DNA of 64,000 nt, taken from a virus. Both the position numbers and the translations under genes were made by a program. The DNA lies in IMG/VR virus record IMGVR_UViG_3300020477_001012, positions 109,843 through 173,842 of that record; one strand, written 5' to 3'. The notes under the pieces were generated by a model. It saw nothing but the letters and a program-made list of their open reading frames with translations. It was not told the DNA's origin and made no database searches. Every line of letters begins with the position of its first letter. The first letter of the stretch is position 1. This document shows, piece by piece, positions 1,894 through 37,600 of the stretch.

Positions 1894-2802
1894 ATGAAAA
1901 TACTACTCACCGGAGCAACTGGCTTCTTAGGAAACAACTTGGAACCTGTGTTGTCAAAGAAACATGTGGTTATTGGACATGGTTCTAGCACATGGGATCT
2001 GAGAAACCAAATGCAAACTGAGTACTGGGTGGGGCATATCAAGCCAGACGCCATTATTCACGCGGCAGGATCTGTTGGGGGTATTGGGGCTAACCAAGAA
2101 AACCCCGGAAAGTTTATGTATGAAAATCTCATTATGGGGGCCAACCTCATTCACCAAGCGTATAAGCACAAAATTCCAAAATTTATACTCTTGGGCACTG
2201 TGTGTGCATACCCTAAATACACTCCGGTTCCGTTCGTGGAAGAGGCTTTGTGGGATGGGTACCCAGAAGAAACAAATGCCCCTTACGGCATCGCCAAGAA
2301 GACGTTAATGCGGCTAGTGGAAGCATATCACGAGCAGTATGGTCTGAATGGCGTTAATCTCATCCCGGTCAACATGTATGGTCCACATGATCATTTTAAT
2401 TTGACCAGCAGCCATGTTATACCCGCCCTAATACTGAAAGTAAAAAACGCAATACAGAACAATAGCGAGTCTATCACTCTTTGGGGAACAGGGCAAGCGT
2501 CTAGAGAATTTCTATATGCCCCAGATTGCGCAGAGGCTATTTGTTTGGCAATTGAAAAAGATGTTTCACCCGAGCCAATAAATATTGGAACGGGCAGAGA
2601 AATCAAAATCTCTGAACTCATCGAAACAATAACTGACGTGATGGGCTACGACGGAAAGATCATATATGACTCTACTAAGCCTGATGGGCAACCAAGGCGA
2701 TGCCTAGATACCTCGCGGGCAAAGGAAAGGCTGGGCTTTGAAGCCAAGACTGGTCTTTTTGAGGGACTGACTAAAACAATAGAATGGTTCAGGGGGCAAT
2801 AG
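1894..2802 (+). CDS. fcl: GDP-L-fucose synthase-like NAD(P)-dependent epimerase/reductase
   Basis: Extended short-chain dehydrogenase that in GDP-L-fucose synthesis performs 3,5-epimerisation and NADPH reduction of GDP-4-keto-6-deoxymannose. It has the GATGFLG dinucleotide-binding loop (residues 7-13), HAAGSVGGI, LLGTVCAYP with the Cys104 expected for epimerisation, the YGIAK catalytic pair Tyr131/Lys135, and His174 in NLTSSHVIPALI, matching the second acid/base of E. coli Fcl. The catalytic Ser of the LGSS motif is Thr102 here, a conservative change. The length (302) is slightly below the usual 310-320. It lies 3 bases after the preceding gene and 1 base before glmS. No GDP-mannose dehydratase is in the window, so the donor must come from the host or a distant phage gene. 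A related epimerase specificity cannot be excluded. Confidence 0.9.
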   Translation: MKILLTGATGFLGNNLEPVLSKKHVVIGHGSSTWDLRNQMQTEYWVGHIKPDAIIHAAGSVGGIGANQENPGKFMYENLIMGANLIHQAYKHKIPKFILLGTVCAYPKYTPVPFVEEALWDGYPEETNAPYGIAKKTLMRLVEAYHEQYGLNGVNLIPVNMYGPHDHFNLTSSHVIPALILKVKNAIQNNSESITLWGTGQASREFLYAPDCAEAICLAIEKDVSPEPINIGTGREIKISELIETITDVMGYDGKIIYDSTKPDGQPRRCLDTSRAKERLGFEAKTGLFEGLTKTIEWFRGQ

Positions 2803-2803
2803 T

Positions 2804-17304: not shown

Positions 17305-19181
17305 TATTTATCCATCTCATATGTGAACGAGATATTAAAACTATAATTTCCATCCTTTGGACTCCAAGTCTCCGAAGGGGGAGACACAAAACACTTCCTG
17401 ACACCCGGCTCGCTATTGGGGCTAACCTCACGCAATAATTCTGCAATCTGTGTGGCCATTGGCTCAACTACGCTGGGCTTTTTAAGTATCAATGGGTTTC
17501 TACCAGAGCCATAAGGAATCTTAGTATAATCCATAACTAAATTCAAAGACACATCTCTTTTGTACTCTGTCCTGCCCCCAATATTTTGTAATATAGGACC
17601 AGTTGCTCTTCCTATAACGGGGACAATGGCAAAAACATCACCGGGATATGTATCGCTCACTTGCAAAGTCTCTACTATCGCTCCAGATATAATATTTGTG
17701 GGACGATTATCAAACGCTAAACTGTAGCTAAGTTCTCCAGTGTACTCATTAGACCCTATAGACACCGAAAGCGGTTGAGAGTTAAGCTGAACAGCAACCA
17801 TATTGTTGGCACGCCTATAAATGTCTGACCCCACCCCAAAAAGCCCACTGTTGGATATAGTGTTATATTTTCTTACGGCATTTTGATATGGGGTCTGCGC
17901 TGTTGTGGGTGTCGCCGGTGGTGGCGCCGGAGCCAAAGATTGAGGGAACCCACCAACAGGGCCTCCCAAGCCAATGCCGCCATACATTTCTCCACTGGGA
18001 GTGATGGTGCTCAGTCCCTTAATGTTGCCATCGATATTAACGCTCACGAACGGGGCGCTGTTGGATGTAGATAAATTAATATTGTAGTTCTCAAAAGCTG
18101 TGCCACTGGCCAAGAACCAGTTTTCAGTGACACTAAATGTACCCGCAGATTCACTAACATTCTCAGTTCTAACGCAGTTAAACCCACCATAATCATCCAT
18201 TAGATTTATGACGCCACTGCTTATCTTCCCGTATATGTTGGGATAACCAGAGGGAACCGCATCCTTGTGTAAACGTTGTGTTACAAACTTCCGAGCAGAT
18301 TCCCAAGCTGGAATTTTTTCTACAGATTCATTCTCCTTCATCATATAGTGTTTTTTGCCGGTAGCATTCAAAGAGTGGGATATTCTATATGACTTGGGCC
18401 TGATTTGTGTTACCCCGTTTGCATCGGTATATGTCTCGCCATTCTCGTCAACTTCAATCGACCAGTCTTCACTGAAGTCAGCAATGAACGCCCCGCTCAT
18501 TTCTACGACCAAGTCTTCTTCGGTTATACCAGAGGTTGCTGTACCGAAAGCTGGAGTGTCTAATAGTGATCTAAATTCTCCCGAAGCGTGCGGTATGAAT
18601 GTTCCCTCTTGGTCTACGTTAAGGGCGGCGTCATCTCTGTGAAACAGAATGTCGGCCTCTAGGTTAATCGTATAATCTGACCTAAGAACGTATGGGCCTT
18701 CCGAGAAGTCAATATTGGTTAGTCTCGGAAAACAAATAACAGCAGGCTGGTCTTCACTAAGGTCTGTAATTTCTAGCCGTTGCCCATCCTGCGCAAACAG
18801 TGCCCTAAGTGCTCTTTGTTTTGAAATCAATGCTGTTGCATGATGATCCATAGGCACTAGCTGGGTGGGTGGCCTACTACTAACGTGAGATATATTGTTG
18901 TCAAAAGAGCCGTGTGGACCAATACGAAGGGGGGCAGGCGTGGGTATGCCAAAGAATGGGAAAGTTCCACCAACAATACCAGCGTTCAAGCCAGTGTTAT
19001 CCGTAGCATAAGGCGTGCCCTCGTTGGGCAAAAGCGTGCCAGTTAATGTGATGCTGTAAGTAACACCATAAGCCTCGCCAGCACCATTCTTCAAGATGTT
19101 GGTAGATATTGAAATAAGCGGAGTGGGCCTAATGGTACACTCTTGATTTGAATCATTCTGATATCTAATTCTAATAGGCAT
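17304..19181 (-). CDS. Virion structural protein, probable distal tail/baseplate component
   Basis: A 625-residue protein with alternating beta strands throughout. Three parts can be told apart. The N-terminal barrel-like region (TPLISISTNILK, GVTYSITLTG, then LFAQDGQRLEI and YTINLEADILF) resembles the opening of phage distal tail proteins. A middle region (residues 225-345) carries helices (PAWESARKFVTQRLH) and repeated strands (TENVSESAGTFSVTENWFL). The C-terminal region is again beta (ELSYSLAFDN, RDVSLNLVMDYT, YSFNISFTYEMDK). It starts by TAATG overlap with the giant gene, with GAGAGG as ribosome site. A ring-forming tail component is the best guess. Confidence 0.65.
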   Translation of the reverse strand: MPIRIRYQNDSNQECTIRPTPLISISTNILKNGAGEAYGVTYSITLTGTLLPNEGTPYATDNTGLNAGIVGGTFPFFGIPTPAPLRIGPHGSFDNNISHVSSRPPTQLVPMDHHATALISKQRALRALFAQDGQRLEITDLSEDQPAVICFPRLTNIDFSEGPYVLRSDYTINLEADILFHRDDAALNVDQEGTFIPHASGEFRSLLDTPAFGTATSGITEEDLVVEMSGAFIADFSEDWSIEVDENGETYTDANGVTQIRPKSYRISHSLNATGKKHYMMKENESVEKIPAWESARKFVTQRLHKDAVPSGYPNIYGKISSGVINLMDDYGGFNCVRTENVSESAGTFSVTENWFLASGTAFENYNINLSTSNSAPFVSVNIDGNIKGLSTITPSGEMYGGIGLGGPVGGFPQSLAPAPPPATPTTAQTPYQNAVRKYNTISNSGLFGVGSDIYRRANNMVAVQLNSQPLSVSIGSNEYTGELSYSLAFDNRPTNIISGAIVETLQVSDTYPGDVFAIVPVIGRATGPILQNIGGRTEYKRDVSLNLVMDYTKIPYGSGRNPLILKKPSVVEPMATQIAELLREVSPNSEPGVRKCFVSPPSETWSPKDGNYSFNISFTYEMDK

Positions 19182-22100
19182 TATTTACCTCTCACCCTTA
19201 GATTTAATTGTTCAGTAGTCTGCGTGCTGGTCATATTAAGGTTAAGAGCACCTGAAGCTACGCCGCTCGGGGCATCAATGTACAATGGCATGGAGCCGCT
19301 GGCTATGTCACTGCACCCAAAAGTAACCAAGTCTACATTATTATACACATATGCTGATGATGGGCCGGGGATCGTGAGATTCATAGACCCGCTAACAGGA
19401 TGCGGCGCACCGGATATATGTAAGTTTAATGTAGCGTTAACAGGCGTGCCGGGCAATAAATCACCCGTTACGTACTCTACAAAGGGCCTGTGGGCTACAA
19501 AACCCTTAGTGGATGGATCAAATCCAGACGCCTCAATGAATATGTCTCCGTTGACGTTAGAGAAGATAATCCCGCTGGTAATGTAAGATATTGGGTCTCC
19601 TGTTTCATTCTGATACACCCTATTCGTTAGCCTGTTATTGCCATCTTCTGCTTTATCCCCAAATATCTCAACATCTATCCAGCTTCCTGCATTCGGGATA
19701 GACGGTAGCTGCTCTCTCAACATTGCGTCGTATGTGTATGCAGCACCAGCATTGGCAAGGCCACTCGTCATGTGGTTTCCACTTGTCGGGTGGTCATGGA
19801 ACGGAGCGCCAACAGACAGTGTGTAATCGCTATCCCCACGCTCAGATCTATATATTGCTACAGATTGCCCAAATCCATCATTCTCACAACCACTAACAAC
19901 TATAACCCCACCTGCCCCGTGAGTGGTGCCCGTTCTTGCTAAATATCCATGTGCATATAATTTTTCTGCGTATTGCCACGTCTTGATTCTATTCGGCCAG
20001 TCTGTTATCTCGTGGCGGTAATTAAACACGGCCCCATTATTGAGAACCATGACTCCACTGTCTCCACCAAACTGGTCGTATCTCACGCCAGAACTGCCCA
20101 AGTCATAATACTTATGTCCGGGGATTTCAAACTCCGCATTAAAGCTCTTGCGCTGGAACGCCGAGGTGCCGCTATAAATGTGATCGTGCAGGGTTGCAAA
20201 ATCATGATGTGGGGCGCCCACAGCTATCATGTCTGCATCAATAGCGACTGAATATCCAAATTTGTCTGTCCTACCAGCATGGTCTACTACAAAGTCTGAG
20301 TTGAGATTGTGGTCCCCTCTTTGTAACTGCAACTGAGACGATGTGCAATTATCCAAACCAACATTAACGCTACTGGGTTTGATTTTTTCCTTGAATTCCC
20401 AAGGCAAGAATTCACTAACCACATTGCTTCCGCTGCCCGTTCTCTCAAAGTAGAATGCGGCTCCAGCCCCACCGTTTTGGCTGACCTTCATGCCAGATCG
20501 ATTGGGGTCATTCTTAATCTCGTGCCACTGCACAATGCCACTAACACCACTGATTGCATTCTCAGTATGGAATCCATTAAATGGAGTCCCAACAACCAGC
20601 TTGTTTTGTGATAGATCAACTGAGAAGCCAAACAGATCACCCGGACACCCAGATGTGTAGAGATCAAAATCAAGGTAGTCGGTACCATTGAACTTCATTA
20701 GGTCTGGCGGCCCGCCAATAGTTTTGGCGTCTACCAAGAAATCTTTAGTTACGCCATCTATAGTGTATAGTCCCTCGTTAAGGAAGTCTCCGCTGAATCT
20801 AGGATAAATACCAAACTTATTTACCGCTTCGGCGCCACCAAACTTATCTACTTCTTCTTTCTTTTTCTCTCCAAGAGGATCAGGCTCTCTGAGGAAGCCC
20901 GGGTTGGCGGGATGGTATGTATCTTCATTATCAACATATGAGCCTAAGTTTCCGGCGGCTCCTCCAGCCCCATAGAGAGGCATGGTTGTGTTCGCTATAC
21001 CGCTCACCGCATAGTACTTGGCGGCACTGCCACGTTCCGGCGCCCTAAGCTTCTGGGTAAACTTAAACTGTCTACCAGTGTCATCATCCCCCTTCTGTGT
21101 GTTCATGCTATAGGCACTTAACGCCGAGTCCTCATGCGGACTTGTCGGGTACAGGCTTCGGATGAACTTCTGATTTTCCTTTATTGCATCGCTTCTATAC
21201 TGGGGACACTGCCCCTGAATCATTGTGGAATCAGAAAGGACTACAATCTTAGACCTCTTGCCTCCAGCAGGGAACGCCGAGAACTGCTCAAATTCCTCTG
21301 CGGCAATCACGGGGCCATCTTCAATTTCATTGTCACCCCTATCATCACACCTAGCGTTTGGATTACAATACCTCTCGCTCTTGTGCTTAATTGGTCTAAA
21401 TGCCCCCTTGACTGTTCCACTCTGTGCTGGCACATACCAAGGATGCTCAATGGTAATTTCACCGCTGGGAACTTGTATCCATCTGGTTGTGGTCGTTATC
21501 GTGGTCTCAATTGGGAGTGGGCACCCAGATATAGATAAAATACGCGGGGTCAATGGGTCTCCCGTGAAATCGCCATCTTTGGCAGGAATTATACCTCTGG
21601 GTAATTTATACCTGTCAGTATCAAGAGAAACCCTAATTGCAGAACCCTTGGCCCTAACATCCACATGCGTAGATTTAACCGAATTGGTTGCAGTATTGTT
21701 GAAATACTCATGCTGATTGAAAGACACCCTATCCATTGGGTCGTTGGGGTCTTCCTCGGCGCTCAACGAGATGTTCCGGGCTTCGCCATGAATCGTAAAT
21801 TTCTCGTTGGGAGTTTCCGACACCCAGTCTACGAATATTCTATAGCCTGACCCCTCTTCAACGGGGAATTCTCCACTAGCCTTGCCGTTAATAAAGTAAA
21901 TGGTTTTCTCGGTGTCATACGTGCAGGTGTCAGTAATTGCATCCTCGTAGTATACAATTTTCTCAAAGTCCCCACCACCAGAAATGGGGATGTAATTTAA
22001 CCTACTAGAGCCAGCCTCTCCCGCCTTGGGCCACAACGAGAGCTTTGGAACATTTGTTTCCACATTCACATGACTGTTCCACCCATAGCCCAGCTCGCAT

Positions 22101-25100
22101 CCTGAAATAGCCTCTTCGGCATAGTTTAATTTTTGCTTGGGGGTCATTATGTTGCAAGTGTCTTGGGAGTCTACACGTTGCCGATTGCTATCACCAACTT
22201 GTGAAGACTGTTGAACAAAATAATCACCCAAACATGGACGGAAGAATGGCCTGCTGGATATGCCCAGCTTTTCACAAAGAACCTTGACATTTTCGGCAAT
22301 CGTCTGCCTCGTGTCTGGGTCCGTGCCGGAATAGGTAATTACAACCTTTTTCTTTCCACCCTTAAGCCAGTTCTTTATAATCGAAATGTCACCATCATCT
22401 GGCTGGCCATCAGGATTAGCAATCCACAGAACGTCTACAGCCGCAGGAATAATGTCACCTTCATTGTATATTTGATTCTCTTTAACGGCGTGATTTCCGT
22501 CTGTATCAATATACAAATTGAGCCTATCCAAAAGAACCGATCCATCATATGCTTCTTTAAATGATTGACGCTTAGTCCACCCTCCTAGCTGCACAATTAA
22601 TGGCGCTTCGTCACAATCGTTCTTCACTAAATTCGCATAAAAGTAATGATTCCTATCGCAGTTACCATTGGGATCGTCAAACGCCTCCTCGCTCTCCCCG
22701 TTCAAGTGGGCGAGCAGATAAACGTTGTTATTGTCATCTACAGGGTTGCCATCTTCATCGTCGTAGATATATTTCTCACGTAACGCTAAAACGCTTTCGT
22801 CTGAAAGTACTTTGTTAACCTTTTTAACTCCGCTTTCGATCATCCAATCGCCTCTACCCTGAACCAAGGCGTCTCGACGATTTTCTGCGGTTGCCGTTGG
22901 CCAAGGATCTGGGTCAATAAAGCCCCCTTGGGTTTTTTCTACATCAAAATAATTGTAGATTCCGCTAACGTTGGAGTTGGAATCTTCAGCAACGTTGAAA
23001 GCCACTTCTTCCAAGTTGTAGTCAGCAAACTCAACCACCTTGTCAGTGGTGACCTTTTTGATAAACTTGTAAATAGTTCGTTTTTCAATACGCACACCGC
23101 TTCTGGCGGGAATGTACCAATGTGTATCTGGTAGGAACTCGGCGGCAGTTAGAATGGGCGAAACATCTTTATATGGTCTGTTGATAAACGGTTGAGGATC
23201 TACTGGGTAATCATCGCAGCCTTGCGCCGCGTTCGGATTAGCAAAATGAAAGCCCCAGTTCTTTTGGTACAGAACTTTGACTTTGTTACCTCTGCCAACT
23301 GTTTTTTCACATTCCTCTGTCCACTCTGCCCGTAGATCTCCATTATGTTTTAGGGGCATATTGCAGACATCTGCATTCAGCTTATCGCATGGGGCTATCT
23401 GGACCATTTCTTGTAAATCGATATCTGACAGGTCCATCCTGATGTCGCCCACACCTTTGGCAAATATGTTATCGGTGCTAATCTTAGACTTGTAGCCATC
23501 GTACTTGGTGTGAGCGTATGTGGGCACATATGCTTTGGTTACATTCCACCTGTCATTAGAAACATCAGAAGAACTCACGCAATCCGGTAGCGATTCGTAT
23601 TTTGTCGCCGCCGGATGGATACGCATTCTAGATCCCAGCTTACCAAGAATCTTATTGACCAACTTGTTAGAATCGCCATACAAACCGTTTTCTTCATACA
23701 CTGGGTCGTTACCAACCAGCACCAGCGTTCTATCTCCAAGGGCCAACCAGTGCTTAATGTTGTCAATGATCTCATCGCTCGCAGCGTCAAGTTCTGGAGT
23801 AATAATAAACGCCAAACCAGCGTCTCTGGGGATTTCTATTTCAGAGAAGTCCATCCTTCTGAAGGACTTGTCATCTGGCTGGAAGTACAAGCCCATTTGA
23901 TCATAGAAACCCTGATCTCGCTCTGTCTCATGAGCGGATCTGTCGAGGTTGCCAAACCTAGTGAACTCCACTACGCCACTATGGGGAATATATTTTCTGG
24001 ACTCAAACATCCTCACAGCACCAGCGTTTGTGTAGGAGGCCCAAGTGTTCTTTTCTTTATACCAAACATTAGTATCTTCAAACAGTGTCGTCGAATCAGT
24101 GGGGGCACCAAAGGCGACAATGTCTCCATCATCACTGACAGACGTGCTGTATCCTAATCGAGATGTGCCTGCAAATTCATTTAAAATGAACTTCCACGTT
24201 CCGGTCGAGGTGATGTCGGAATAAGCATATTGATAAACTGGCTTATATAGCTCAATAGTTTTGTTAGTACCCCAGAAGTTTTCATCAATTCTAAAACTAA
24301 ATTTATTACTCTGGGACAACTCGTGATACACCACATTCTGTGCTACAGACTTTCCAGAAGCAGCCAGAAGATCATCATACCTATTCACCTCAGCAGTCAT
24401 TGATGTGAATACGAGCCAGTCCCGAAGGTTCTTATACATACGCTCATTTTCAGAATTGTCTCTTTCAAAGATTTCGCAAGGAGTATTCGTGAATGGAGAA
24501 CCTATAGAAACTACCTGAGAATTTTGGCTAATGCCCACAGAGTGACCAAAGCGGTCGTTATATTCATCACGATATGGACCCAACCACTCCTCGTTCGACG
24601 CAGCAGTATTAGAGGGGTCTGTAACGGCCCCGCCGGTGTGGTATGTGCCACCACCTCCGAACTTCAAGGATTCTCTTACGCTAAGAGGTTTGATCTCTTG
24701 CACACAATTAAATATGCCACTTTCTTTCTCGAATATGTAAACTCTACCACCAGAACCCGGAGGAATTTGGAACTCATAGGCATTCGGATTTGCCCACTCT
24801 TGGCCAACGCCACTGGTAATGAATTTCATTACGTCATTATTGATTAAATAGCCAGAATCAAGAGTGTCATGGATCAAATCTATAGACGTGTCAGCCCAAT
24901 CCAGTGAAGACCCAGCCACCCTTCTGACGTGTCCAGTAGCAGCCAAGTCTACGTTGGGATCAATGACGCCGCTTGCGTAAGAATACTGTTCATAGAAATC
25001 AACAAACTCATCAATGATACTTACGCCATCATGCACAAAAGCAGCGCCATTCATTGAACTTGGGCTGCGTTCCTCGAACAGGCCCATAATTGGGGGTATG

Positions 25101-28100
25101 CCACTGTGGGGAGAAAATTCACTAGAGCCGCTCGGGAACACACGTAAGAACCCATTTTCTTTTATGCCGCTCAACATTCTGTCGTGGGTTTCCTGTTTTA
25201 GGTCAGCTAGATCTGGGTCTATCATACTTGGAATCCACGTATGGTGGAACCAACTCGGCCCCTCTGGCTCTTGCTTTGGCTCAGACCCTTTGTATGTCTC
25301 GAAGACCATAACATCCACGTTGATTTGTGGCTGGAATTCTTCTGGCGTCTGGGCGTTCCATGGAGCGGAGAAATATTTATACAATATGTCCCACTTGCCC
25401 GCTGCGTTTCCAATTCGACCAATGTCGGCTTCACTGTATTGAAACTCATCAATGAACACAAACATGCAAACCGGAATGCCCGACGTTTGAATATCCTGAA
25501 ACTTGCGGCTCCACCCAGCAAACGGGGCGCCAACGATAATGGTCTCTCTGTCTCCGCTAGCCCCGATGTCTAATGAGCTGCCAAACCTTCTGCCCTCTTG
25601 GCCAATATTCCATCTTTGGCCGGAAATACTAAATGTATCAAATTTAATAAGGTTGTCTACTACCTTGCTGACATAATCCCTTCTGAAACCTGACGGCAGC
25701 ATGAGTTGGTCCTGCATCTGCCAGTCTGCCTTCTTGCCCGCAACATCAGCTCCACGCCGATACACGAACGCAGAGCCTGCGTCTGGTATCATGTGCCCAG
25801 AACTATCTGCTATTTCTCTACGCGGAGCAGAAACAACCATGGCATCATCCATCACAGCCACGGCCTTGCCATACTGATCTTGCAGGTCTCGGGTGTTAGG
25901 AGGCGTGAGTGATGCATCGCCGCTCATGTGTGGGTAGTCGCCAATCATCTTGGCACCAGAATATACTAAGTTTTGATCGCAATCAGCGGTGCAGCATCCA
26001 CTATCTGAATAGAAATCAGGCCCGCAGATTCCATACTCCCAGTCCTCAAAGTTTCTGGGAACCTTAATGGCATCAGTAGAGCCGGTGGTGATTTTCATTG
26101 TTGCCCAATATGGGGCGTGCGGGATAAGATTCCGACTTTTTCTTATACCATAATAATTGCCACTGTAGCCCAGCCCGCCAGAGAAGTTTATAGCCCCAGA
26201 GTTGGTATATAAACCAACAGCCCTGAAAATTCCCCCGTCATTACACGTCTCTTCTCTCCAGACTGTGTCATCAGTAACAATCGCCTTGTCAATGGCTTTG
26301 CGTGGGCTGTCACTCAGACAATGACCATAACCAATAAGGTCCACACCTCTTATTTCATTGCCAACAGGTAACGATGCATATGTGTTGTCTTCTATATTTA
26401 TACCGGTTCCATAATTATAATTGAACCAATTGAAGAACGTAGAGCCAACACCCCCGTAATTGGACATAAACAGGTTCATACCCAGTTGCGGGCTACCAGT
26501 CGTCCCCGTCCCACTGGATGAGGCAAAACTGGTGGTAAGATCATCCCCATAAAGCACTAAGTTCATGTTCTCAGAAAGCAGCGGTGTGCCCTCTATGAAC
26601 AGGTTCATCTTAACTAATGGTAAAGAATCCACCAAAGATGTAGAACCAAGGGTAAACAGGTTCAACAAAGTAGAAGAAGCTACCGGATCGGCAGCGTGAG
26701 TGTTTGCAAGGACCAACGGCATAGAATCTCTAAGGCCCACAGAACCACTGGTGGCATAAGTAAACAGTGGTAATAGCCCGCCGCTTGGAACATAAGATAG
26801 ATCGTCGTTCCGAATCGAAAGCGGGAAGATAGCTGACCCAAGCCCAACACCTTCAACATTTAAGTTAAATGCCCCACTGCCATCAGTAATTGGATAATAT
26901 TTACCAGAAACATTAAGATTGATTCCAGAACTTTGCGTTACATAGCTTAGGGTGTTAAGGTGGAGACTTTGCAACTCTCTAAATGAACCACTAGTGAATA
27001 GCGTAAGGCCAGAGCCGTTATAACCACCAGCTCCCCCGGTTCCAGAGCTGCCCAGCCCTATCGGCCCGACAGCAAACAAGTTTAATATACCGCTGTCAGA
27101 CGGAGCGTAGTTCTTTAAGAATAAGTCCAGATTTTGCGCAACAACATTACCACCACTGGCGATCAAGTTTACGTTAGAATTGGCATCAGTGTCCTTAACG
27201 TATGCATCATCCAATCTCACATGGGAGGTATGGATATTAATTCTAGACTCAAACGGTTTGCCAGAAGGATACACCAAGTCATATTGCAGGAACATGTCGT
27301 CGACATCCTGCGAATAATATTTCTCAGAGAATTCGCTAAGAACAGGCTCGTCTGGGAAGAGCGCCCACTGTTCAGACGTGTCTACTAGACTATCATATGT
27401 AAACTTACTGTCAACCCTCATAATACAGCTTGAAGGCTCTAAATAATGTATGTCTCTATTGATCAGGCCCCAGTTAGGCTCATCAGGAACCCAGTACGGT
27501 TCTTTCTTCTTGGTGTACAAACTAACAATAAGCTTGGGTCCAACCGTGCCCGTACAATTTGGCCACACAATATCATGGTCAGTTTTGTGCTCCATTACGG
27601 TTTCGACAACCAAGGCCCTATCGGAGAATACATAATCACGAGGTAAGTCTTTGGTAATCCTTCTTTGGGTAGAATAGAAGTTGTCAGAGGTATCACTCAA
27701 ATGGAATCGCAAGAAGTCATTCTCGATCTGAGTATGATACGACACCCCACTGTCAACGTTTGAAGGAAGTGTTAGATCGTTTCTGGTTATATATCCAGAA
27801 CCATCATGGTTGATATTAAAGCTAACAAGGTCGCGGCCAGTACGCTTGGTGAGCTGATTAAACGCTATGCCAAACTGGCAATACTTGAACGCACCTATAT
27901 CCCAATCTGAATAAGTATTCTCATTAACATAATCCCAGAGCTTAAACGTATCAATATGATAATCTTCATCTGGACTGTAGAACTTAGCCCGATGATTGTC
28001 AAAGAACTTCTCAGCAGTCACCTGCTTGTATGTTGCGTCTGGATTGGCTTCAACAATGTTGGTGCCGGAGCCTTTGACTCCCACCGTGTAAGTGGAAATA

Positions 28101-31100
28101 CCAAACTCACTGAGTAGCATGTTCATCCCAACGCCAGAGCCGGGAGAGTGACCCACAATCAAATTAGCGTTAGTGGTGTTCTTGTAGAATGGGACTGAAC
28201 TAGCTCGTAAGAACAGGTGGTCGCCATCAAACCCATCACCAAAATCATGGGTATAAGTGTTCCGGTCGGCCTCATTGTCAGTATAAAGTTTCAGCCCGCT
28301 ACCATTGTGGTCGTTATAAGTAAGAATAACGGACAGTGGGAATTGATAGCCACTATACGGAAGGGTGTCAGCAACCGTAATAACATTGCCATCTATGTCT
28401 TTAGAGTACCCACACAGGAATCCTCCACTATAACCAAGGGCAAAGTCAAGATCTGCTGCACTGTCCCATTTAGAGAAGAGCACGCCAGAATTGAACAGAT
28501 TGTAGTCTACTCCGCTAATATTAGCATCTGGTGTGAACCTAGTAAATATGGAGAACCCGCTAGTGGTGTCTATATTCCCAAAATTGATATTTTGACTGTG
28601 GCCGGATATTCTAACAACGTTATTGAATGCGTCTGCAATACGCCCATAAAGCTTGTCGTCCTCAAAGTTGGTGGAAGTGGAATCATTGGTCATGGATGTC
28701 CAGTCACTTGTCTTATAAGCCCCGCTATAACCCGGGAGTTGGTCACTGAACAATGTGCCGCTGCTAAATCTCCAGCCGATGTTTTTGTATATCTCAGGAG
28801 TAGTGCTAAACAGGCCGCTCACGTTGCCGAAGCCACTCCCCAGTGGGCGAGACTTAACATAGAGACCGTCCATCTCGTCAAAATCATAAAATCCAGACAG
28901 GAACGGGAAGTCCATGTGCGGATTCTCAAACCCGAACCCAAACATGTCTGGGTCAAACGGACCACGGACGGTGCCCTCCATCCCTCTCCATCGACGGGAA
29001 TAATTAGATTTTATACTAGAGGGCGTAGTAAAGGCGTGGGGAATTCCCTCAATCGTGGAAATTGGCCCATAACCGGAACCCGCATTAAGCATGTCATCTG
29101 TAGAGCCGCGCGATATCGGATAGATCGACCCTTCGGACCTACCATCCTGTATCTTGCGTATCTTATCCCCACCCTCAATGGACAACTTGAGGGCATTTTG
29201 CGGCTTGTACCTAACCAGCAAATGCACGCTTGCGATGCTGGCCCCACTGGGGAGTGGGTATATGTCTAAGTATAAGTGCTCAAAAAGAGAACTCATGCTG
29301 TAGTCTCTGGATTGACCCAGAGTTACCCGGTCGTCATATATCTTAAGTGGCACTTCATAGTCGACAAAGTCGGTAGTGCTGACCACAGGATAGTTTGTCA
29401 AAGAGTAGTGATCGCCCCCAAGGTTTCCACTAGTTTCAGTGTATCTTTCTTTTTCAGATAAACTCTCAGAGGCAATAGCAAGGTCGTCGCCATCGGCCAA
29501 AAATCCAGAGGTAACGGGATGAGTGCCATCGCTGCTGATTATCTGATCATTGAGCTGTACGCTGTATGGATTTTGCAGAAAGCCACTAGGAGCACTGCTA
29601 ACATTTAACAGTCCATCATCACTATATCCAACCACATCCAAAACGTAGTTTCTTGATCCGGTAGCCTTTTTAGCCTTGACCTTAAGTGTAATAGATTCAA
29701 TGTCAAAGAAGCCATCGTCTACACCTAGCTGGGTTCTGTTTTGAGTATTGAAAGCTCCACTGGGATCGAACCAAGTGGGGCAGATGGTCTGGTCAAAACC
29801 ACAATCAAAAGCACCCTTAGTGACTTCATTAACTATTCCCCTGCCGTGGGAGAATTTAAGGGTTAGCTTTCCAGAATCCAGATGAGGCCCCGTAGAGTGA
29901 AGCTCGGCGTAGTCATGGGCGGTCTCTCTTTGTATTGCCGAAACTAATCCAGTGGCACCGCAAGAATCCAAGTTGGAGCCTATAGTGACATGTCCCATGT
30001 TGCTATTTTTATGGTGCCAAATACTACTGACAGAAGGCCAAACCCCAGTGTCAAATTCAGCAAGAGGCATAAAGGATGGGAGAATCTTACGCTCCAGTCT
30101 TCGTCCCTTCTCGGGAACTTGGGCAAACAGGCCGATGTAGTCCTCTGGCCTTGGACCATATCCGCCACTATTGCATATTTCTAATGCAGAGATTCTAATC
30201 GCTTTAGTCGGGTTAATTAAAGATTGATCTTGAGTAGATAATGGGGCGCCGTCTAACGCTAGGTAATCATCCCCGCTGGCGTATGTATCATGTATTATAT
30301 AGTTGTCTTCAAAACCATCGCTAAAACCGGGAGCAAATGGATCATCCAACGCTTCAGATCTAACATCGAATGTTAATTTATACCCACTAATCTGATACAT
30401 ATGAGGGGCGGATGTACGCTGCCAATCATACAGATCCGCCTTGTTGGTAACAGCCGCTGAAGAGTAGGTGGAAAAGTTAGCGTGAGTAGCTGAATTTGTA
30501 TAGTCTACATCTCCATATACAATAATGTCTTCATACTTAACCACCAAGTTGCCAGATGGATCTTCAAACTTAATGTTATGGATAGTATATCTTGGGGGAA
30601 CATTAGCTTCATAGTTATTGATCGGAGCTGAAGCCCTGATCCGTAAGCGGGTCTCCTCTGGTCTGACAAGGAAGTTGGTTAAGTTACACTTATATTGAAA
30701 TAGCCCTTCTGTGTGAAACGTGTCGGGGTGGATAAATGAGTTGGCGTCGTCTGATATAATAATACTGTTGCCAAACTGCTTATCATAGTCGCCCGTAAAG
30801 ACGCCTTCGTCAATGAAGCGGTAAAGGTTGCCAGACGAGTTGTCTGAGCCAACAAAATTGCCCATACCGGCATCGATGGGCAGGTCTCCGCTTGGGTAGA
30901 GTTTTTCTACGCATTCAAAATCACCAAAATCTCCATAGAACTTATCGGCGCGGGTTGCTCTAAGATTAAATCCGCCCAGCATCTTTTGATGAATGTTGTA
31001 GTCAGTTGTAAGCCCATTGTTAATTTTCCCCACAGCAGATAGGGAGTTTTCCCCCATTCTTATGCGACCAGACAACTTAGAGGAAATATGCACTGAGGCC

Positions 31101-31624
31101 GCAATAGATGTGGAGCACACCCTTGCCCTAGCAAGTCTGGGGTTGGACTGCTCAGTCTCGCTGCATAATTTGATAAGGCATATGTTGTCATACCCACCTG
31201 AGCACAAGCTAGAAATGGGCGTGTCAGGGGCATCTTGACCCAGACGATAAAAAAGGATTATCTCCTTACTGTTGATGCCCAAGATAGAATATGTATACGT
31301 CTGACCCGACTTCTCTATGGTGGCAATATCCCCAACAGAGATATAGCAAGATACGGCTTCTTTAAGGGTGACGGTATAAATTGGGCCTGTACCGTCAACA
31401 TCTGTAAACTCTACAGATTGGCAGAACTTATAGGGGGAAAAAAGCAGGCCGGTGCAGTGCATTCCGGCTCTGGATTCTCTACCGCACTTGCTTGTTACAA
31501 TGTTCTTTTTAAGGGCGACATTGCAACTTAATTTGGCTTTAACCGTAATACCAGTAGCTGTCAAGGTGCCTGTTGCGGCCTTGACGCATAAGCATTCTAA
31601 GGTTTTTAAGTGCCTATTAGCCAT
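19181..31624 (-). CDS. Giant multidomain tail adhesin (4147 residues) with FG-GAP repeats
   Basis: Starts at ATG 31624 with AAAGGA upstream; a TTG three bases before it is not needed. Modules in order: residues about 1-990, beta-rich unknown regions; 1000-1180, a LamG-like jelly-roll (FSIFTRFTPD, LIVGHSPGSGVGM); 1500-1700, short LxLxxxG repeats (LNLFTLGS, MNLFIEG); 1900-2500, four FG-GAP repeats (YGKAVAVMDDAMVVSAP, FGSSLDI with IIVGAPF, FGHSVGI with VVSIGSPF, LGYSTSVSDDGDIVAFGAP); 2590-2660 and 3060-3140, two segments like a GATase/DUF4350 fold; 3650-3930, three more FG-GAP repeats (FGFSVDL with LVVGTPF, FGYSVAIDADMIAVGAP, FGQSVAI with LSVGAPF); 4060-4147, more LxLxxxG repeats. It follows the tape measure gene, the place of tail-tip and host-recognition proteins. 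No enzyme site was identified. Confidence 0.85.
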   Translation of the reverse strand: MANRHLKTLECLCVKAATGTLTATGITVKAKLSCNVALKKNIVTSKCGRESRAGMHCTGLLFSPYKFCQSVEFTDVDGTGPIYTVTLKEAVSCYISVGDIATIEKSGQTYTYSILGINSKEIILFYRLGQDAPDTPISSLCSGGYDNICLIKLCSETEQSNPRLARARVCSTSIAASVHISSKLSGRIRMGENSLSAVGKINNGLTTDYNIHQKMLGGFNLRATRADKFYGDFGDFECVEKLYPSGDLPIDAGMGNFVGSDNSSGNLYRFIDEGVFTGDYDKQFGNSIIISDDANSFIHPDTFHTEGLFQYKCNLTNFLVRPEETRLRIRASAPINNYEANVPPRYTIHNIKFEDPSGNLVVKYEDIIVYGDVDYTNSATHANFSTYSSAAVTNKADLYDWQRTSAPHMYQISGYKLTFDVRSEALDDPFAPGFSDGFEDNYIIHDTYASGDDYLALDGAPLSTQDQSLINPTKAIRISALEICNSGGYGPRPEDYIGLFAQVPEKGRRLERKILPSFMPLAEFDTGVWPSVSSIWHHKNSNMGHVTIGSNLDSCGATGLVSAIQRETAHDYAELHSTGPHLDSGKLTLKFSHGRGIVNEVTKGAFDCGFDQTICPTWFDPSGAFNTQNRTQLGVDDGFFDIESITLKVKAKKATGSRNYVLDVVGYSDDGLLNVSSAPSGFLQNPYSVQLNDQIISSDGTHPVTSGFLADGDDLAIASESLSEKERYTETSGNLGGDHYSLTNYPVVSTTDFVDYEVPLKIYDDRVTLGQSRDYSMSSLFEHLYLDIYPLPSGASIASVHLLVRYKPQNALKLSIEGGDKIRKIQDGRSEGSIYPISRGSTDDMLNAGSGYGPISTIEGIPHAFTTPSSIKSNYSRRWRGMEGTVRGPFDPDMFGFGFENPHMDFPFLSGFYDFDEMDGLYVKSRPLGSGFGNVSGLFSTTPEIYKNIGWRFSSGTLFSDQLPGYSGAYKTSDWTSMTNDSTSTNFEDDKLYGRIADAFNNVVRISGHSQNINFGNIDTTSGFSIFTRFTPDANISGVDYNLFNSGVLFSKWDSAADLDFALGYSGGFLCGYSKDIDGNVITVADTLPYSGYQFPLSVILTYNDHNGSGLKLYTDNEADRNTYTHDFGDGFDGDHLFLRASSVPFYKNTTNANLIVGHSPGSGVGMNMLLSEFGISTYTVGVKGSGTNIVEANPDATYKQVTAEKFFDNHRAKFYSPDEDYHIDTFKLWDYVNENTYSDWDIGAFKYCQFGIAFNQLTKRTGRDLVSFNINHDGSGYITRNDLTLPSNVDSGVSYHTQIENDFLRFHLSDTSDNFYSTQRRITKDLPRDYVFSDRALVVETVMEHKTDHDIVWPNCTGTVGPKLIVSLYTKKKEPYWVPDEPNWGLINRDIHYLEPSSCIMRVDSKFTYDSLVDTSEQWALFPDEPVLSEFSEKYYSQDVDDMFLQYDLVYPSGKPFESRINIHTSHVRLDDAYVKDTDANSNVNLIASGGNVVAQNLDLFLKNYAPSDSGILNLFAVGPIGLGSSGTGGAGGYNGSGLTLFTSGSFRELQSLHLNTLSYVTQSSGINLNVSGKYYPITDGSGAFNLNVEGVGLGSAIFPLSIRNDDLSYVPSGGLLPLFTYATSGSVGLRDSMPLVLANTHAADPVASSTLLNLFTLGSTSLVDSLPLVKMNLFIEGTPLLSENMNLVLYGDDLTTSFASSSGTGTTGSPQLGMNLFMSNYGGVGSTFFNWFNYNYGTGINIEDNTYASLPVGNEIRGVDLIGYGHCLSDSPRKAIDKAIVTDDTVWREETCNDGGIFRAVGLYTNSGAINFSGGLGYSGNYYGIRKSRNLIPHAPYWATMKITTGSTDAIKVPRNFEDWEYGICGPDFYSDSGCCTADCDQNLVYSGAKMIGDYPHMSGDASLTPPNTRDLQDQYGKAVAVMDDAMVVSAPRREIADSSGHMIPDAGSAFVYRRGADVAGKKADWQMQDQLMLPSGFRRDYVSKVVDNLIKFDTFSISGQRWNIGQEGRRFGSSLDIGASGDRETIIVGAPFAGWSRKFQDIQTSGIPVCMFVFIDEFQYSEADIGRIGNAAGKWDILYKYFSAPWNAQTPEEFQPQINVDVMVFETYKGSEPKQEPEGPSWFHHTWIPSMIDPDLADLKQETHDRMLSGIKENGFLRVFPSGSSEFSPHSGIPPIMGLFEERSPSSMNGAAFVHDGVSIIDEFVDFYEQYSYASGVIDPNVDLAATGHVRRVAGSSLDWADTSIDLIHDTLDSGYLINNDVMKFITSGVGQEWANPNAYEFQIPPGSGGRVYIFEKESGIFNCVQEIKPLSVRESLKFGGGGTYHTGGAVTDPSNTAASNEEWLGPYRDEYNDRFGHSVGISQNSQVVSIGSPFTNTPCEIFERDNSENERMYKNLRDWLVFTSMTAEVNRYDDLLAASGKSVAQNVVYHELSQSNKFSFRIDENFWGTNKTIELYKPVYQYAYSDITSTGTWKFILNEFAGTSRLGYSTSVSDDGDIVAFGAPTDSTTLFEDTNVWYKEKNTWASYTNAGAVRMFESRKYIPHSGVVEFTRFGNLDRSAHETERDQGFYDQMGLYFQPDDKSFRRMDFSEIEIPRDAGLAFIITPELDAASDEIIDNIKHWLALGDRTLVLVGNDPVYEENGLYGDSNKLVNKILGKLGSRMRIHPAATKYESLPDCVSSSDVSNDRWNVTKAYVPTYAHTKYDGYKSKISTDNIFAKGVGDIRMDLSDIDLQEMVQIAPCDKLNADVCNMPLKHNGDLRAEWTEECEKTVGRGNKVKVLYQKNWGFHFANPNAAQGCDDYPVDPQPFINRPYKDVSPILTAAEFLPDTHWYIPARSGVRIEKRTIYKFIKKVTTDKVVEFADYNLEEVAFNVAEDSNSNVSGIYNYFDVEKTQGGFIDPDPWPTATAENRRDALVQGRGDWMIESGVKKVNKVLSDESVLALREKYIYDDEDGNPVDDNNNVYLLAHLNGESEEAFDDPNGNCDRNHYFYANLVKNDCDEAPLIVQLGGWTKRQSFKEAYDGSVLLDRLNLYIDTDGNHAVKENQIYNEGDIIPAAVDVLWIANPDGQPDDGDISIIKNWLKGGKKKVVITYSGTDPDTRQTIAENVKVLCEKLGISSRPFFRPCLGDYFVQQSSQVGDSNRQRVDSQDTCNIMTPKQKLNYAEEAISGCELGYGWNSHVNVETNVPKLSLWPKAGEAGSSRLNYIPISGGGDFEKIVYYEDAITDTCTYDTEKTIYFINGKASGEFPVEEGSGYRIFVDWVSETPNEKFTIHGEARNISLSAEEDPNDPMDRVSFNQHEYFNNTATNSVKSTHVDVRAKGSAIRVSLDTDRYKLPRGIIPAKDGDFTGDPLTPRILSISGCPLPIETTITTTTRWIQVPSGEITIEHPWYVPAQSGTVKGAFRPIKHKSERYCNPNARCDDRGDNEIEDGPVIAAEEFEQFSAFPAGGKRSKIVVLSDSTMIQGQCPQYRSDAIKENQKFIRSLYPTSPHEDSALSAYSMNTQKGDDDTGRQFKFTQKLRAPERGSAAKYYAVSGIANTTMPLYGAGGAAGNLGSYVDNEDTYHPANPGFLREPDPLGEKKKEEVDKFGGAEAVNKFGIYPRFSGDFLNEGLYTIDGVTKDFLVDAKTIGGPPDLMKFNGTDYLDFDLYTSGCPGDLFGFSVDLSQNKLVVGTPFNGFHTENAISGVSGIVQWHEIKNDPNRSGMKVSQNGGAGAAFYFERTGSGSNVVSEFLPWEFKEKIKPSSVNVGLDNCTSSQLQLQRGDHNLNSDFVVDHAGRTDKFGYSVAIDADMIAVGAPHHDFATLHDHIYSGTSAFQRKSFNAEFEIPGHKYYDLGSSGVRYDQFGGDSGVMVLNNGAVFNYRHEITDWPNRIKTWQYAEKLYAHGYLARTGTTHGAGGVIVVSGCENDGFGQSVAIYRSERGDSDYTLSVGAPFHDHPTSGNHMTSGLANAGAAYTYDAMLREQLPSIPNAGSWIDVEIFGDKAEDGNNRLTNRVYQNETGDPISYITSGIIFSNVNGDIFIEASGFDPSTKGFVAHRPFVEYVTGDLLPGTPVNATLNLHISGAPHPVSGSMNLTIPGPSSAYVYNNVDLVTFGCSDIASGSMPLYIDAPSGVASGALNLNMTSTQTTEQLNLRVRGK

Positions 31625-31658: not shown

Positions 31659-34600
31659 TTATTCACCCATACCGGCGATTTTCTTTAGTCCATTGTTAGT
31701 TGCTTTGTATTTAGGTATTTCGTCACGCACGGCGTCAAGCACTATATCTCTAATGGCTGGTTCAAGTTTTGGAAGAACCACGTTAACACTGATGGGCGGC
31801 ATGGAGTTAATATCAACACCCATGGTAAACCCTGTAAGCTTGTCAATAGCATTGGCAAATGAGGTTACAGCCGTGCCTAACGCTGGCATAGCATCACCAA
31901 ACATTGAACCCATTTTCTGCACAAGGTCACCAAATTGATAATAACCAACTGGACCGCCTGCGCTCATGGCGGTGGCGGGCGCGGTGGCATCTTGTCGACC
32001 ACTGCTATTCATGGCCCTAAGTATCTGCAAGTTATTACCACGATTAACGGCAGCACGATTAACCACAAATTCTCCCGGGGTCAACATGGCAGGAACAGTG
32101 TCAGTTCCACGAGGAACAAAAATACCCCTATTGGCATAAACTACGCCGCCTCTATACATGCCAGCTAGTTCTCCCACTCCCCTATCTGCCGCAGTTTGCG
32201 AGGCCACTTTTCGTTGCATCGTTTCATCAAATACTACTTGAGCATTTGTAATTGTTACTGTAGCCTTAGCAACTTCCATCTTCTTAATCTCTGCCATTTG
32301 CTGGGCTTGGGCGCCCAACTCTGAGGCCAACCCTCTACCCTCAGCTCGCAGGGCCTCAGTTTCTGCATCTCGCCCAACCATGACTCCGGCAGATCTGGCA
32401 TCCGTAATGCCCATAGTCGACAGAGTGATACCAGCAGCCCGTTGCATTTCCGCATCAGACATCCCAGTGCCTTCTAGGCTCTTCATTCCGGCACCAAGGG
32501 CTGACGGGCTAAACAAGCTAGCCATGTTGGCGTCCCCGGCTCGTAAGGCGGCAGCAGCCCCAGCAGCGGCTTGTTGCTCGATGAAACCCTCAATATCTCC
32601 AGCCATTAATTTTTCAAAAGAACTTTTTTCAGCAGCATTCTTCTTGGCTATAATAGCAATCTCTTCCTTGATTTGATCAATCCTCTGTCTCGTCAGAGCC
32701 ATAAGGGCATCGTTGGTCTTGGCTAATTCTGTTGTTCTATCTTCGTCAATTCCTCCCGGCCCCTGAAAACCACCGCTGGCCTTGCGTGCCATCTGCACAT
32801 CAGTCTTGGCTGCCACCTCTTCTCTTGCTCTGGCAAGCTCGCCAGCACTAGCATTGCGAAGAGTCTTGATCCCAGCGTCTTGGGCGACCAAGTTGAACTG
32901 AGCCACACGCGCTTGCTCTTTTTGTTCTGAGCTAAGCTTGTCTCCACCAAAGTCCTCAAAAATCTTAGCTGCCTGTAACTGCACATCAATAGCTTTCTTC
33001 TGTGCCTCAATATAGGCAAGCTCTGACGCCCTCCTAGCCTTGGTTAATGCTACGATGGTCTTTTGGTGTTCCAGTACAGCCTTGGCGGATTCCAGAGCAG
33101 TTTTTCTGAGTGGGTCTAAGCCGGATTTGATTTCTTCAATTAAACTGCTCGCGTCTCTGCCTCTGATGTCTCCTAGACTCTGAACAGCCCCCATTATAGC
33201 TTCTTGGGTAGCCTTGTCGGTAACACCAGCTAACAGGGAAGTTTCTAAGCTTGACTTGGCTGCCGCCTCACTACTTTGGTTAATGTCTAACCCGCTAATT
33301 CGCTTCTGCAAGCTGCCCATGAACTGGTTAACGCCCTGCGCCCGATCAAATGACCGGTTAACAGCTTGACCAACAGAGCTATTCTCACCCCCACCGACTG
33401 AGGCTAAAACTTGTTCGCGCGCGTCGTTTAAAGCCCTCTCGCCCTCTTCTCCCATCCCCATGTTAGCTTGAGCAGTCTCTATGGTCGCAATAGTGCTTTC
33501 TAATGCCAGCGATCCGGTTTCTAACGACGATAAGAAGTTATTCACAGCGTTGCTCGACGCGGCGAACACCGACATAACCTTAAGATTATCAAAGTTTGCT
33601 TTCGCTACCGCCTCCATCGCCGCTTTCATCTTGAAGGCCGCAACTGCTGCCGCTTTCTGTGCCTCTGCTCCTGCGGCAGTAGCGCCTCCAAACTCATCAA
33701 AGAATTTAGTAAGCTGATTAATGCTCGTGGCATTCTTACCCATAATCGCGGCAGCTTCTAGTTCTTGTTTCTTGAGGGCATTTAACTTTTCAGTCTTTGC
33801 CTGCCCCTCATCCATCCTATTGATGAAACCCATAGCCTCGGTGCTGGACCTTAACACCGACTCGCCCAGCTTTTCTACCTTAACTCCTCCAGCTCCCACA
33901 AATTCGCTCGCTCTACCCTCTACGGTCTTTCCAGTCTTTGCTTCTTCAATGAACTTGGACTGTTTGCCCACCGCCGCCTCTGTCGCATCCGTTGCTGCCT
34001 GAGTAACGACCTGTTGGTGTATCTGGTCTCTTAGTTCTTTTGGGTCCGTAGTAAGCGCCCTGATGATTCCTTGCATGGTGAACATCTCCGAAAATGCTTC
34101 ATTCATTGCACGCTCTTGTCCAGCCTTGCCCGCCCCCGTCACATCTCCTTTGTCTTTTGCTTTTTCAGCTTTTCTTCCGGCTATCTCCGCTAACGCCCCG
34201 AACACTTGACCTGAAATCATGGCTGCCGACATCGCTAGTCCCGCCGCACCGCCAATGGCGGTAGCGCCCCTGCTCATGCCTTTCCCGACCCTGCCCTTCA
34301 TGCGGGACATCATCCCGCCACCTTTCGTTTTTCGCATCTGGGCGTTCATTTTCTTCAGGGCGCGAGCAGCTTTGTTGGCGTCTTTTGGTAGTATCTTTAA
34401 TTGCTTACGGAAGCCGTTGAGCTTCTGTTTGCCCTTTGTGAAGCCAATGCTTAATAATTTCAACCCGTATCTGTACCCTTTGGTTCCTTTTAACGCTTTC
34501 CTTTTTGCTATTAGCTCTCTGTTTAGTTCCCGCCCGTATGCCCTCGCGTGCTTCACGGCGGGATGATAGTGTTTGGCCTCTTTGTTTCTAGTCATCGCCA

Positions 34601-37600
34601 ATTTTTTGGCAGAAGTCCGAAGATTGTTCTGGCTACCAGCTAATTTCTTGTTGGCTTGACCAAGATCATTTTGCGTTGTTTTCAATCTCTTTTGAGTATT
34701 AACGTATCTATTGTTAGCATCCCTTGAGTCTTTCACAGCCGCTGCTTCTTTCCTGAGTGCTTTGGCTTTCTCCTCTGCGGCAGCCTTAGTAACGACGGCT
34801 TGCTTCTTAGACGCATCGGCACTGTTTTTGGCTGCTAGAATTGCGGCCTTTTCCGTTCTAACGGCACCTTCCCGATTCTTATTATAGCTCTTCTGTCTCC
34901 GCTCTGCGTTCTTCAGTTCGTCTTGCAGTTTTCTAAGTTGTTTCTCCCACCCTGCCGATTTAACACCTCCGCTGACACCTTTCTTGGTGTGAATGAAAGC
35001 GCCGTCGCCTTTCCTCCTCTTCCTTGTAATTCCTCGGTCTTCTAATTGCTTCCTGTGGGCGCGTATCTCGGCCTTCTTTCGATTTACCGCCTCGGCTTTT
35101 TTACCGCCCGGCTCCCAACCCTTCTCCATTTGCTTTCTGTGTCTTGTTGCGTCGTCAGCCCCAGCCTGATCTTTCGCTGCTTTGGCTTTTTTCTGTGCTA
35201 GACGGGTTTCTTCTGTCGCAGCCACCCCAGTCGCTGCCGCCGCCGTTTTCGTAGCCGCTCTTTTCCTCTTGTTGGCTTCAGTCCGGTCGCCCTCATCAAC
35301 AGCGACCTGCTTCTCTAGTCGGTTCCTTTTTTTGTGTAGCCTTCTTTTTTCGTTTCTGTCTTCTTTCATCTCCTTGCCTTTGTTGGCAAGATCTTTCTCT
35401 CCCTTTTGTACCGCTTTCTCCTTGGCAAGCTCAGACACGTTGCGAGCGTCACTGACCTTTTTCTTCTTCTTCTTGCCCTTCTTTTTAGACTTCTCCGTTT
35501 TCTCTTCTTCTTTTTTGGTCTTGGTCTCTTCAGTGGCCGACTCGGAAGTTGCCTTGTCTGCCTTCTTCTTGTCTTTCTTCTTCTTGGACGAGCTTTTTTT
35601 GGTATCTTCTGCCTCAGACGAAGCCTCTGCCTCGGCCTTCTTCTCGGTCTTCTTCTTTTTCTTCTTCTTCTTGCCCTCGGCCTCCTCCAAGGCTTTTTCT
35701 AACTTAGGCTTCTTGTCTTTTTTCTTTTTATCTTTCTTGACATCTTTGGCGGATTTCTCAAGAGCTTTCCCCCATTCTTTGAGTTTCTTCGTAAGCAGCA
35801 TACTAGCCTGTATGATAATAGCAAGCTGTATTAGAGACTGAGAAACCCGCTCCGCAGCAACGGCGGATACGAACTGGGCGTCAGTAGCTTCTTTGCTCTT
35901 GTCTCCAAAATTGCTTAATGCCGTGGCCGCGAAGCCAGACATAAGCATCATCTTTTCCATACCCCCAAATCCGCCACCACCACCAGCCGCGCCACCCTTG
36001 GCAAATTTCTGCACTCCCACTGGGCCGCCCGCAGCAAACCCAGTCACGCCCTTTTTGTTCATTCGGTTCAGGTTAGCGTAACCGATACTTCGAGCAGATT
36101 TTTTATTGACGACAAATTCGCCGGGAGTGAGGAGGGCGGGGACCGTGTCTGAGCCAGAAATTCCACCGCCAGAGGCTCGCCTTGTACGTCCAAATTCGCC
36201 AGCTTTCCTTCTTTTTCCTACTTCTGATTTACTCAGCCCTGTAAGTTTAGCAACTGCGCTATCGGCCACATCAACTTGCTTGCTCTTGGCGTAAATAGCA
36301 TTAATCTCGCTACTTTTTGCAGCAAGGGTTTCTTGGCCCTTGAGACTCTTAAACAGTTTGTATTCTTCTGCTAATAAGTTGGGGTATTTCTTATTAATAA
36401 CCTCGTCAACATATGATTTATTTAGGGTTCTTTTTGCGTCTATTGGTATACTGGCAAACTCAGAAAATTTACCTCTAGCTAGAGATCCTAAACCTGACGG
36501 AAAATCAAATGCTGAATTGTTATCTGATTTAGTCTTGGCTCTTTGTCGTGCGTCTTGCGATCCAGAATCAAAGGGCGCGCCGATCTTAACCAACAGAGCT
36601 TCAAATGCATTCCCAATAACCCCTTCAATCCCAAGCTTATCCAAGTCTGTGAGAGATAAGTCTCGACCGGTAACCTTTCCTTCTCCAGATAGACCCGAAA
36701 AATAGGTCTTTAAGCTATCGCCACTGGCATTGATAGCCTGTAGAAACGAATCCTTGATTGCCGCTTCAGTTTTGTCTCCAACGGTCTGATCACCAATCGC
36801 CATGCCGCGCGAGGTGACAGATAGTGAGCCACGCTTAGCTAGGAGTTGTTGAAATTCTGGACTAAAACTCCTCTTGGCACTCTGTAATACTTGTGCATTT
36901 TCCCTTATTTTCTTAACGCCTTTGGCATCTGCTGAAAATCCAGCTTTACCAGCAACATCTTTGAGTGTTACAGAACCCTTGGCTTCCAGAGGTTTGTTTG
37001 GGGGGTCTTTGTCATATGGTCGCAGCGCTATAATGCCACCTGCGGCATATTTATTTTGATTCATCGCCTGAAGCTGGTCGGCCCCAATCTTCTTCACGCT
37101 ACTCTTGCGAATAACAAATTCCCCGGGCTGTAGCATAGCCGGGACTGTGTCTCGGTTTCCAGAACCGGGCACAAAACCACCACGGGCAAAGTGGTGGATT
37201 TTACCACCCTGATGTTTTGCCTTGACGCCCCTGAGTGATGCGCCAATTCCAGCAGCAAAACCGCCAATACCTTGACTGACCTTAACTGCGGCAAATGCAC
37301 CAAGAAGTGGGATGATGGGCTTGAGGGCATCGGCAACTTTGATCAGGGCAGAAGCAAGACCAAGGGCCGTTTTTGCCATCACCTGAAAAGATGTGGACTC
37401 AGTAATTCCCCTTACCAAGGCAAGAAATTCTTCTTTAACCTTGACGATCTGAACGGCCAAAGCCTGTTGGGCCGTGGCAGCGTCTCTTGTTAAAGAGTCC
37501 CCACCAGCGATGGCGGCCTGTCGCGCCCTCTCGGCTGTCTCAAATTGCTGCAAGAGGGGGATGACTTTACCGATTTGCCTAAAGCCACCAAGTTGCTCTG

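Follow-up and report, generated by a model that had tools for sequence, protein, structure and literature searches.

Seven FG-GAP_2 blades, interrupted by large inserted domains, in a putative distal-tail protein of an uncultured tailed phage

Introduction

An uncultured virus (IMG/VR record IMGVR_UViG_3300020477_001012) encodes a protein of 4147 amino acids in which a preliminary description, made from the letters of the DNA, reported FG-GAP repeats of the kind found in integrin alpha chains, four in one cluster and three in another. This raises the question of whether these repeats are genuine propeller blades, whether they build one propeller or two partial ones, and what a phage might use them for. 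The stretch of DNA that was analysed, called the window, is the final 64 kb of this 173,842-bp record. The gene (P0001) occupies 19181..31624 of the window, stop codon counted, on the minus strand, as do all features described below unless stated otherwise. We verified its open reading frame, which begins with an ATG at 31624 and ends with a stop codon at 19181-19183; when the frame is called at its maximal extent, one TTG codon precedes this ATG.

Results

The 4147-aa protein matched the Pfam family FG-GAP_2 (PF14312) with E = 1.1e-18, scoring 67.6 bits where the cut-off is 23. The expectation that a curated FG-GAP-type family would match was therefore borne out by PF14312, the correct family, and not by FG-GAP itself (PF01839), which had no match anywhere in the contig in the Pfam profile search. 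Four repeats lie within residues 1915-2545 and three within residues 3655-3990. A contig-wide Pfam search found blades 1, 5, 6 and 7 each singly, blades 2, 3 and 4 having diverged too far for Pfam matches of their own. Profile-profile comparison joined all seven, each reaching a probability of at least 64% with two or more of the others; among seven control segments taken from this protein, none exceeded 0.8%. Scanning residues 201-4147 with the blade profiles recovered the same seven positions and no eighth blade. Blade 3 scored 6.3 bits with a core hidden Markov model (HMM) that was trained on three blades only (1, 5 and 6), whereas no score among 200 shuffled proteins exceeded 2.7 bits; in this single-sequence test neither blade 2 nor blade 4 was significant. 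FG-GAP_2 was also seen in the homologues, over blades 1-4 in 60 of 60 and over blades 5-7 in 23 of 23. Integrin-type beta-propellers are recognized by seven FG-GAP/Cage repeats, and seven mutually homologous ones are present here. The seven repeats are genuine homologous blades, beyond what chance would produce.

AlphaFold prediction of residues 1880-2560 with 60 homologues gave a confident model (predicted local distance difference test, pLDDT, 84.6; predicted template modelling score, pTM, 0.80) that builds blades 1-4, with blade strands at residues 1920-2541, in line with the blades that the preliminary description had sought from structure prediction; an earlier AF2 run with 16 sequences (pLDDT 52) served as a lead only. 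When this model was compared with known structures using Foldseek, the top PDB matches were integrin alpha chains. Three PDB matches had E < 1e-3 and all are integrins with an I domain (alphaX, 1.9e-5; alphaE, 8.9e-5; alphaX, 4.1e-4). These three aligned over 662-689 columns, and integrins without an I domain over approximately 130-180. The tight matches cover about 137 columns at 3.8-4.0 Å with a Foldseek probability of 1.00. Among viral predicted structures, the matches included FG-GAP proteins from giant viruses and uncultured Caudovirales, with a weaker match to a protein of cyanophage S-TIM5 (E = 2.7e-3).

Blade 1 (residues 1915-1975; 25700..25882) is supported by Pfam, the AlphaFold model and the profile comparison. 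The model and the profile comparison place strands 1-2 of blade 2 at residues 2008-2046 (25487..25603), and the model and strand conservation place its strands 3-4, with the sequence GGRVYIF, at residues 2291-2312 (24689..24754). Blade 3 (residues 2352-2390; 24455..24571), which is supported by the model, the core HMM and the profile comparison, carries, in the model, a helical insertion and its outer strand (residues 2391-2470; 24215..24454). Strands 1-3 of blade 4 span residues 2484-2545 (23990..24175) in the model and the profile comparison. Pfam and the profile comparison locate blade 5 at residues 3655-3752 (20369..20662), blade 6 at residues 3780-3895 (19940..20287) and blade 7 at residues 3908-3990 (19655..19903).

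The preliminary description had overlooked the domains inserted into this module. The first, which we call insert A (residues 2047-2290; 24755..25486), is an alpha/beta domain identified from the AlphaFold model and Foldseek that sits inside blade 2, between strands 2 and 3. Its elements follow the order b-a-b-b-a-b-a-b-a in the model, which is that of a vWA domain and resembles an I domain. The homologue alignment revealed a motif like that of a metal-ion-dependent adhesion site (MIDAS) at residues 2185-2189 (25058..25072). This motif is ExSxS in the window protein, [DE]x[ST]xS in 59 of the 60 homologues and DxSxS in 37 of them. The residue D2059, which follows the first strand of the insert, is kept in 83%. 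We considered a circular permutation of a vWA domain since the DxSxS motif comes late; the direct connection of strands B and C, with no helix between them as in the classical b2-b3 hairpin, makes this less likely.

The second, insert B (residues 2546-3654; 20663..23989), separates blades 4 and 5 by approximately 1100 aa and is retained in the aligned relatives. Pfam and profile matches point to two GldG/DUF4350-like domains within it, copy 1 at residues 2585-2720 (23465..23872) and copy 2 at residues 3040-3160 (22145..22507), which match each other at 94.9% in profile-profile comparison. DUF4350 was matched in 10 of 15 members with a best E value of 2.7e-5, the window protein itself scoring 18 bits, below the cut-off of 30.4, and Pfam also matched ABC_transp_aux to insert B of relatives.

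Scans of IMG/VR found relatives in at least 80 distinct uncultured viral contigs, with identity down to about 28% at the lowest. No homologue at useful similarity was found among 50,697 deposited phage records; the distant relative in contig L050 gave weak FG-GAP matches to deposited phages, including one 10% match to C48C1. Searches of PDB sequences with the 4147-aa protein and four profiles returned nothing meaningful. The relatives aligned in detail have four blades, an insert of approximately 1000-1210 aa and then three blades, and each complete relative that was checked has seven in all (L011 and L015 are contig-end fragments that end inside insert B). In ten or more contigs, among them L039, L049 and L050, the gene is split, mostly near residue 1770, and the blades are then on a separate protein of about 2180-2360 aa (2177 aa in L050); the N-terminal part (residues 1-1770; 26315..31624) is its own gene of about 1500 aa in these three contigs and others. 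Since the blade part is a gene of its own in at least ten contigs, the module is an independent unit that is fused here to an N-terminal tail protein.

Identity to the relatives is 45-76% in the blade cores and 24-40% in the inserts outside the first GldG-like copy, which is an exception at 75%. The most variable parts are residues 2047-2290 (35%), 2676-3050 (33%) and 3131-3430 (24%). Short strand-like 'LNL..xxG' repeats occur on either side of the blade module, at residues 1480-1740 (26405-27187) and 4060-4147 (19184-19447); the former region, at 24% identity, is among the least conserved parts of the protein.

Homologues also occur in three contigs (L132, L133 and L134) of metagenome-assembled genomes, two from one SAR202 genome and one from a Verrucomicrobiales genome; these are either hints of a host or misbinned phages. 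The TerL of the virus, considered for host assignment, is only about 25% identical to that of isolates.

A tape-measure gene (31659..38561; PhageMin_Tail, E = 2.1e-26) is located directly upstream of the gene for the 4147-aa protein, and a tape-measure protein is also encoded upstream of the relatives in contigs L001, L012 and L019. The protein is therefore encoded at the distal-tail gene position of tailed phages, and its location among the tail genes after the tape measure is that of genes for receptor-binding proteins. From this setting we infer that the protein is present in the virion.

Other genes in the window were also noted. A 1608-aa protein (59105-63931) contains YadA head repeats (YadA_head, E = 2.2e-28, six stretches in Pfam), a fold of adhesin type that is encoded here by a phage. 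A 473-aa protein (55949-57370) has a Laminin_G_3 domain, and its C-terminal part is common, at about 32% identity, to virion proteins of cyanophages S-PM2 and S-SKS1 and a Flavobacterium phage. At 1894-4366 on the plus strand, opposite to the tail genes, a nucleotide-sugar epimerase-like gene adjoins a GlmS-like gene with SIS and glutamine-amidotransferase domains; the two possibly serve phage sugar-nucleotide metabolism.

Discussion

We favour the interpretation that the C-terminal portion of this protein, about 2370 residues, is a distal-tail host-recognition module in which one integrin-type seven-bladed propeller is the scaffold for the inserts, and consider it somewhat better than an even proposition. 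The seven FG-GAP_2 blades would close into one propeller despite the approximately 1100 residues that part blade 4 from blade 5. This conserved propeller would then be the scaffold from which insert A is displayed at blade 2, the helices at blade 3 and the GldG-like pair at blade 4. Contact with the host envelope, possibly with sugars and possibly mediated by a bound metal, would fall to the variable inserts. It is speculative that the DxSxS loop makes a metal-dependent contact and that the GldG-like pair contacts sugars. Conserved blades combined with variable inserts suit a scaffold that presents contact surfaces, and a host-recognition head at the tail tip is therefore favoured.

Several observations weigh against parts of this interpretation. 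The DxDxDG calcium loop is absent from the whole protein, and the Asp-rich loops that had been predicted for the blades are thus not there. The long integrin alignments are not rigidly superimposable (template modelling score at most 0.19; root-mean-square deviation 17-19 Å). The MIDAS-like motif of insert A comes after its fourth strand, whereas the MIDAS of a vWA domain has DxSxS after strand 1 and T and D in later loops, and no sequence link to vWA was found, with no Pfam vWA match in 40 members and no PDB vWA match; we therefore do not claim that insert A is a member of the vWA family. The AlphaFold model spans blades 1-4, so that ring closure is a matter of inference. The host-receptor role would follow from genomic context and insert variability.

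The alternative that survives best, which we regard as unlikely yet deserving of some weight, is that the propeller is purely structural, acting in tail-tip assembly or as a spacer, and that the receptor is bound by another protein, such as the YadA-head protein or one of those encoded downstream (1609 aa and 1371 aa). It would account for the blades being the best conserved part of the protein, and the window does contain several other large adhesin-like genes. However, the inserts are variable and of a surface type, and integrins use an FG-GAP propeller with an inserted domain as their adhesion head (PMC3192720 for the fold).

The preliminary description had left open whether the four and three repeats form one propeller or two partial ones. 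One propeller is favoured, and all seven blades probably close as a single intramolecular propeller. In integrin-type propellers an N-terminal strand completes blade 7 (PMC3192720), and a conserved strand 'SGxKLIGD' ('SGVKLIGD' here; residues 1884-1895; 25940..25975) just ahead of blade 1 is a candidate for this role, based on its conservation and position. The four-blade model, which lacks blade 7, defines this strand poorly. Blade 4 has no fourth strand ahead of insert B, and a conserved 'LMK' stretch just past the insert is a candidate for it. A single ring is favoured because of the total of seven blades, the candidate closing strand and the splitting of blade 4 around insert B. The competing possibility, that the clusters are separate open arcs of four and three blades or rings completed by neighbouring tail-tip subunits, seems rather improbable. 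In its favour, the halves are parted by 1100 residues and the four-blade part gives a confident model by itself. Moreover, tail-tip subunits are usually oligomeric. Against two arcs stand the constant total of seven in the relatives, and the closing strand and split blade 4 that suit one ring. Finally, a chance likeness in a Gly/Ser-rich protein, to which one could point because blades 2 and 4 have no significant single-domain matches, is refuted by the Pfam E value, the segment and shuffle controls, the AF2 model and the Foldseek matches.

The preliminary description did not know FG-GAP repeats as a standard tail-tip module. Such repeats are not unknown in phages, as FG-GAP_2 is confirmed in proteins, annotated as hypothetical, of the deposited phages C48C1 (eight stretches, E = 8.7e-57; record L130, 8710-13149) and Sinorhizobium phage Phosso (24 stretches, E = 6.1e-173; L131, 5403-16241), and tblastn relatives of the C48C1 protein are found in S-TIM5, S-MbCM6 and S-H9-1 in genes annotated as structural or baseplate. 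The proteins of C48C1, Phosso, S-TIM5 and S-MbCM6 share the FG-GAP_2 family with the 4147-aa protein but are not homologous to it over the full length, with no tblastn match of the 4147-aa protein to them. We found no paper on FG-GAP repeats in phage tails in the open full-text literature, which mostly leaves out subscription journals. With FG-GAP_2 in phages already known, what is new is the conserved, interrupted four-plus-three propeller with an integrin-like insert and GldG-like domains. The latter belong to the GldG/DUF4350/ABC_transp_aux group (GIFT family), and the two copies in insert B, which have weak Pfam scores, are part of a phage protein rather than of one for gliding motility or transport. 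To our knowledge, FG-GAP blades paired with GldG-like domains have no earlier description. The family is a testable candidate for host recognition in a large group of uncultured tailed phages.

Bacterial integrin-type propellers likewise have FG-GAP repeats in sevens and an N-terminal strand that completes blade 7, but their repeats are contiguous with one calcium site each (PMC3192720), whereas those of the 4147-aa protein are interrupted and have none. The closest PDB folds are those of the integrin alpha head (alphaX and alphaE), which likewise has seven FG-GAP blades, an alpha/beta domain at blade 2 with a MIDAS-like DxSxS motif and an N-terminal strand placed to close the ring. Unlike integrin alpha, the 4147-aa protein has no DxDxDG calcium loops, carries an extra insert of about 1100 aa past blade 4 and has no known beta-subunit partner. 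Its insert A interrupts blade 2 itself, after the second strand and before the third, and has no sequence-level vWA match, whereas the integrin I domain lies between blades 2 and 3. It is a doubtful proposition that the uncultured tailed phages of a large clade attach to their hosts by an integrin-alpha-like head, comprising a single seven-bladed propeller, a metal-dependent I-domain-like insert and GldG-type domains, and that this architecture is common to animal integrin adhesion by descent or convergence. An integrin-alpha-like layout outside animals, with seven blades and an alpha/beta insert that has a MIDAS-like motif, bears on whether this arrangement arose more than once.
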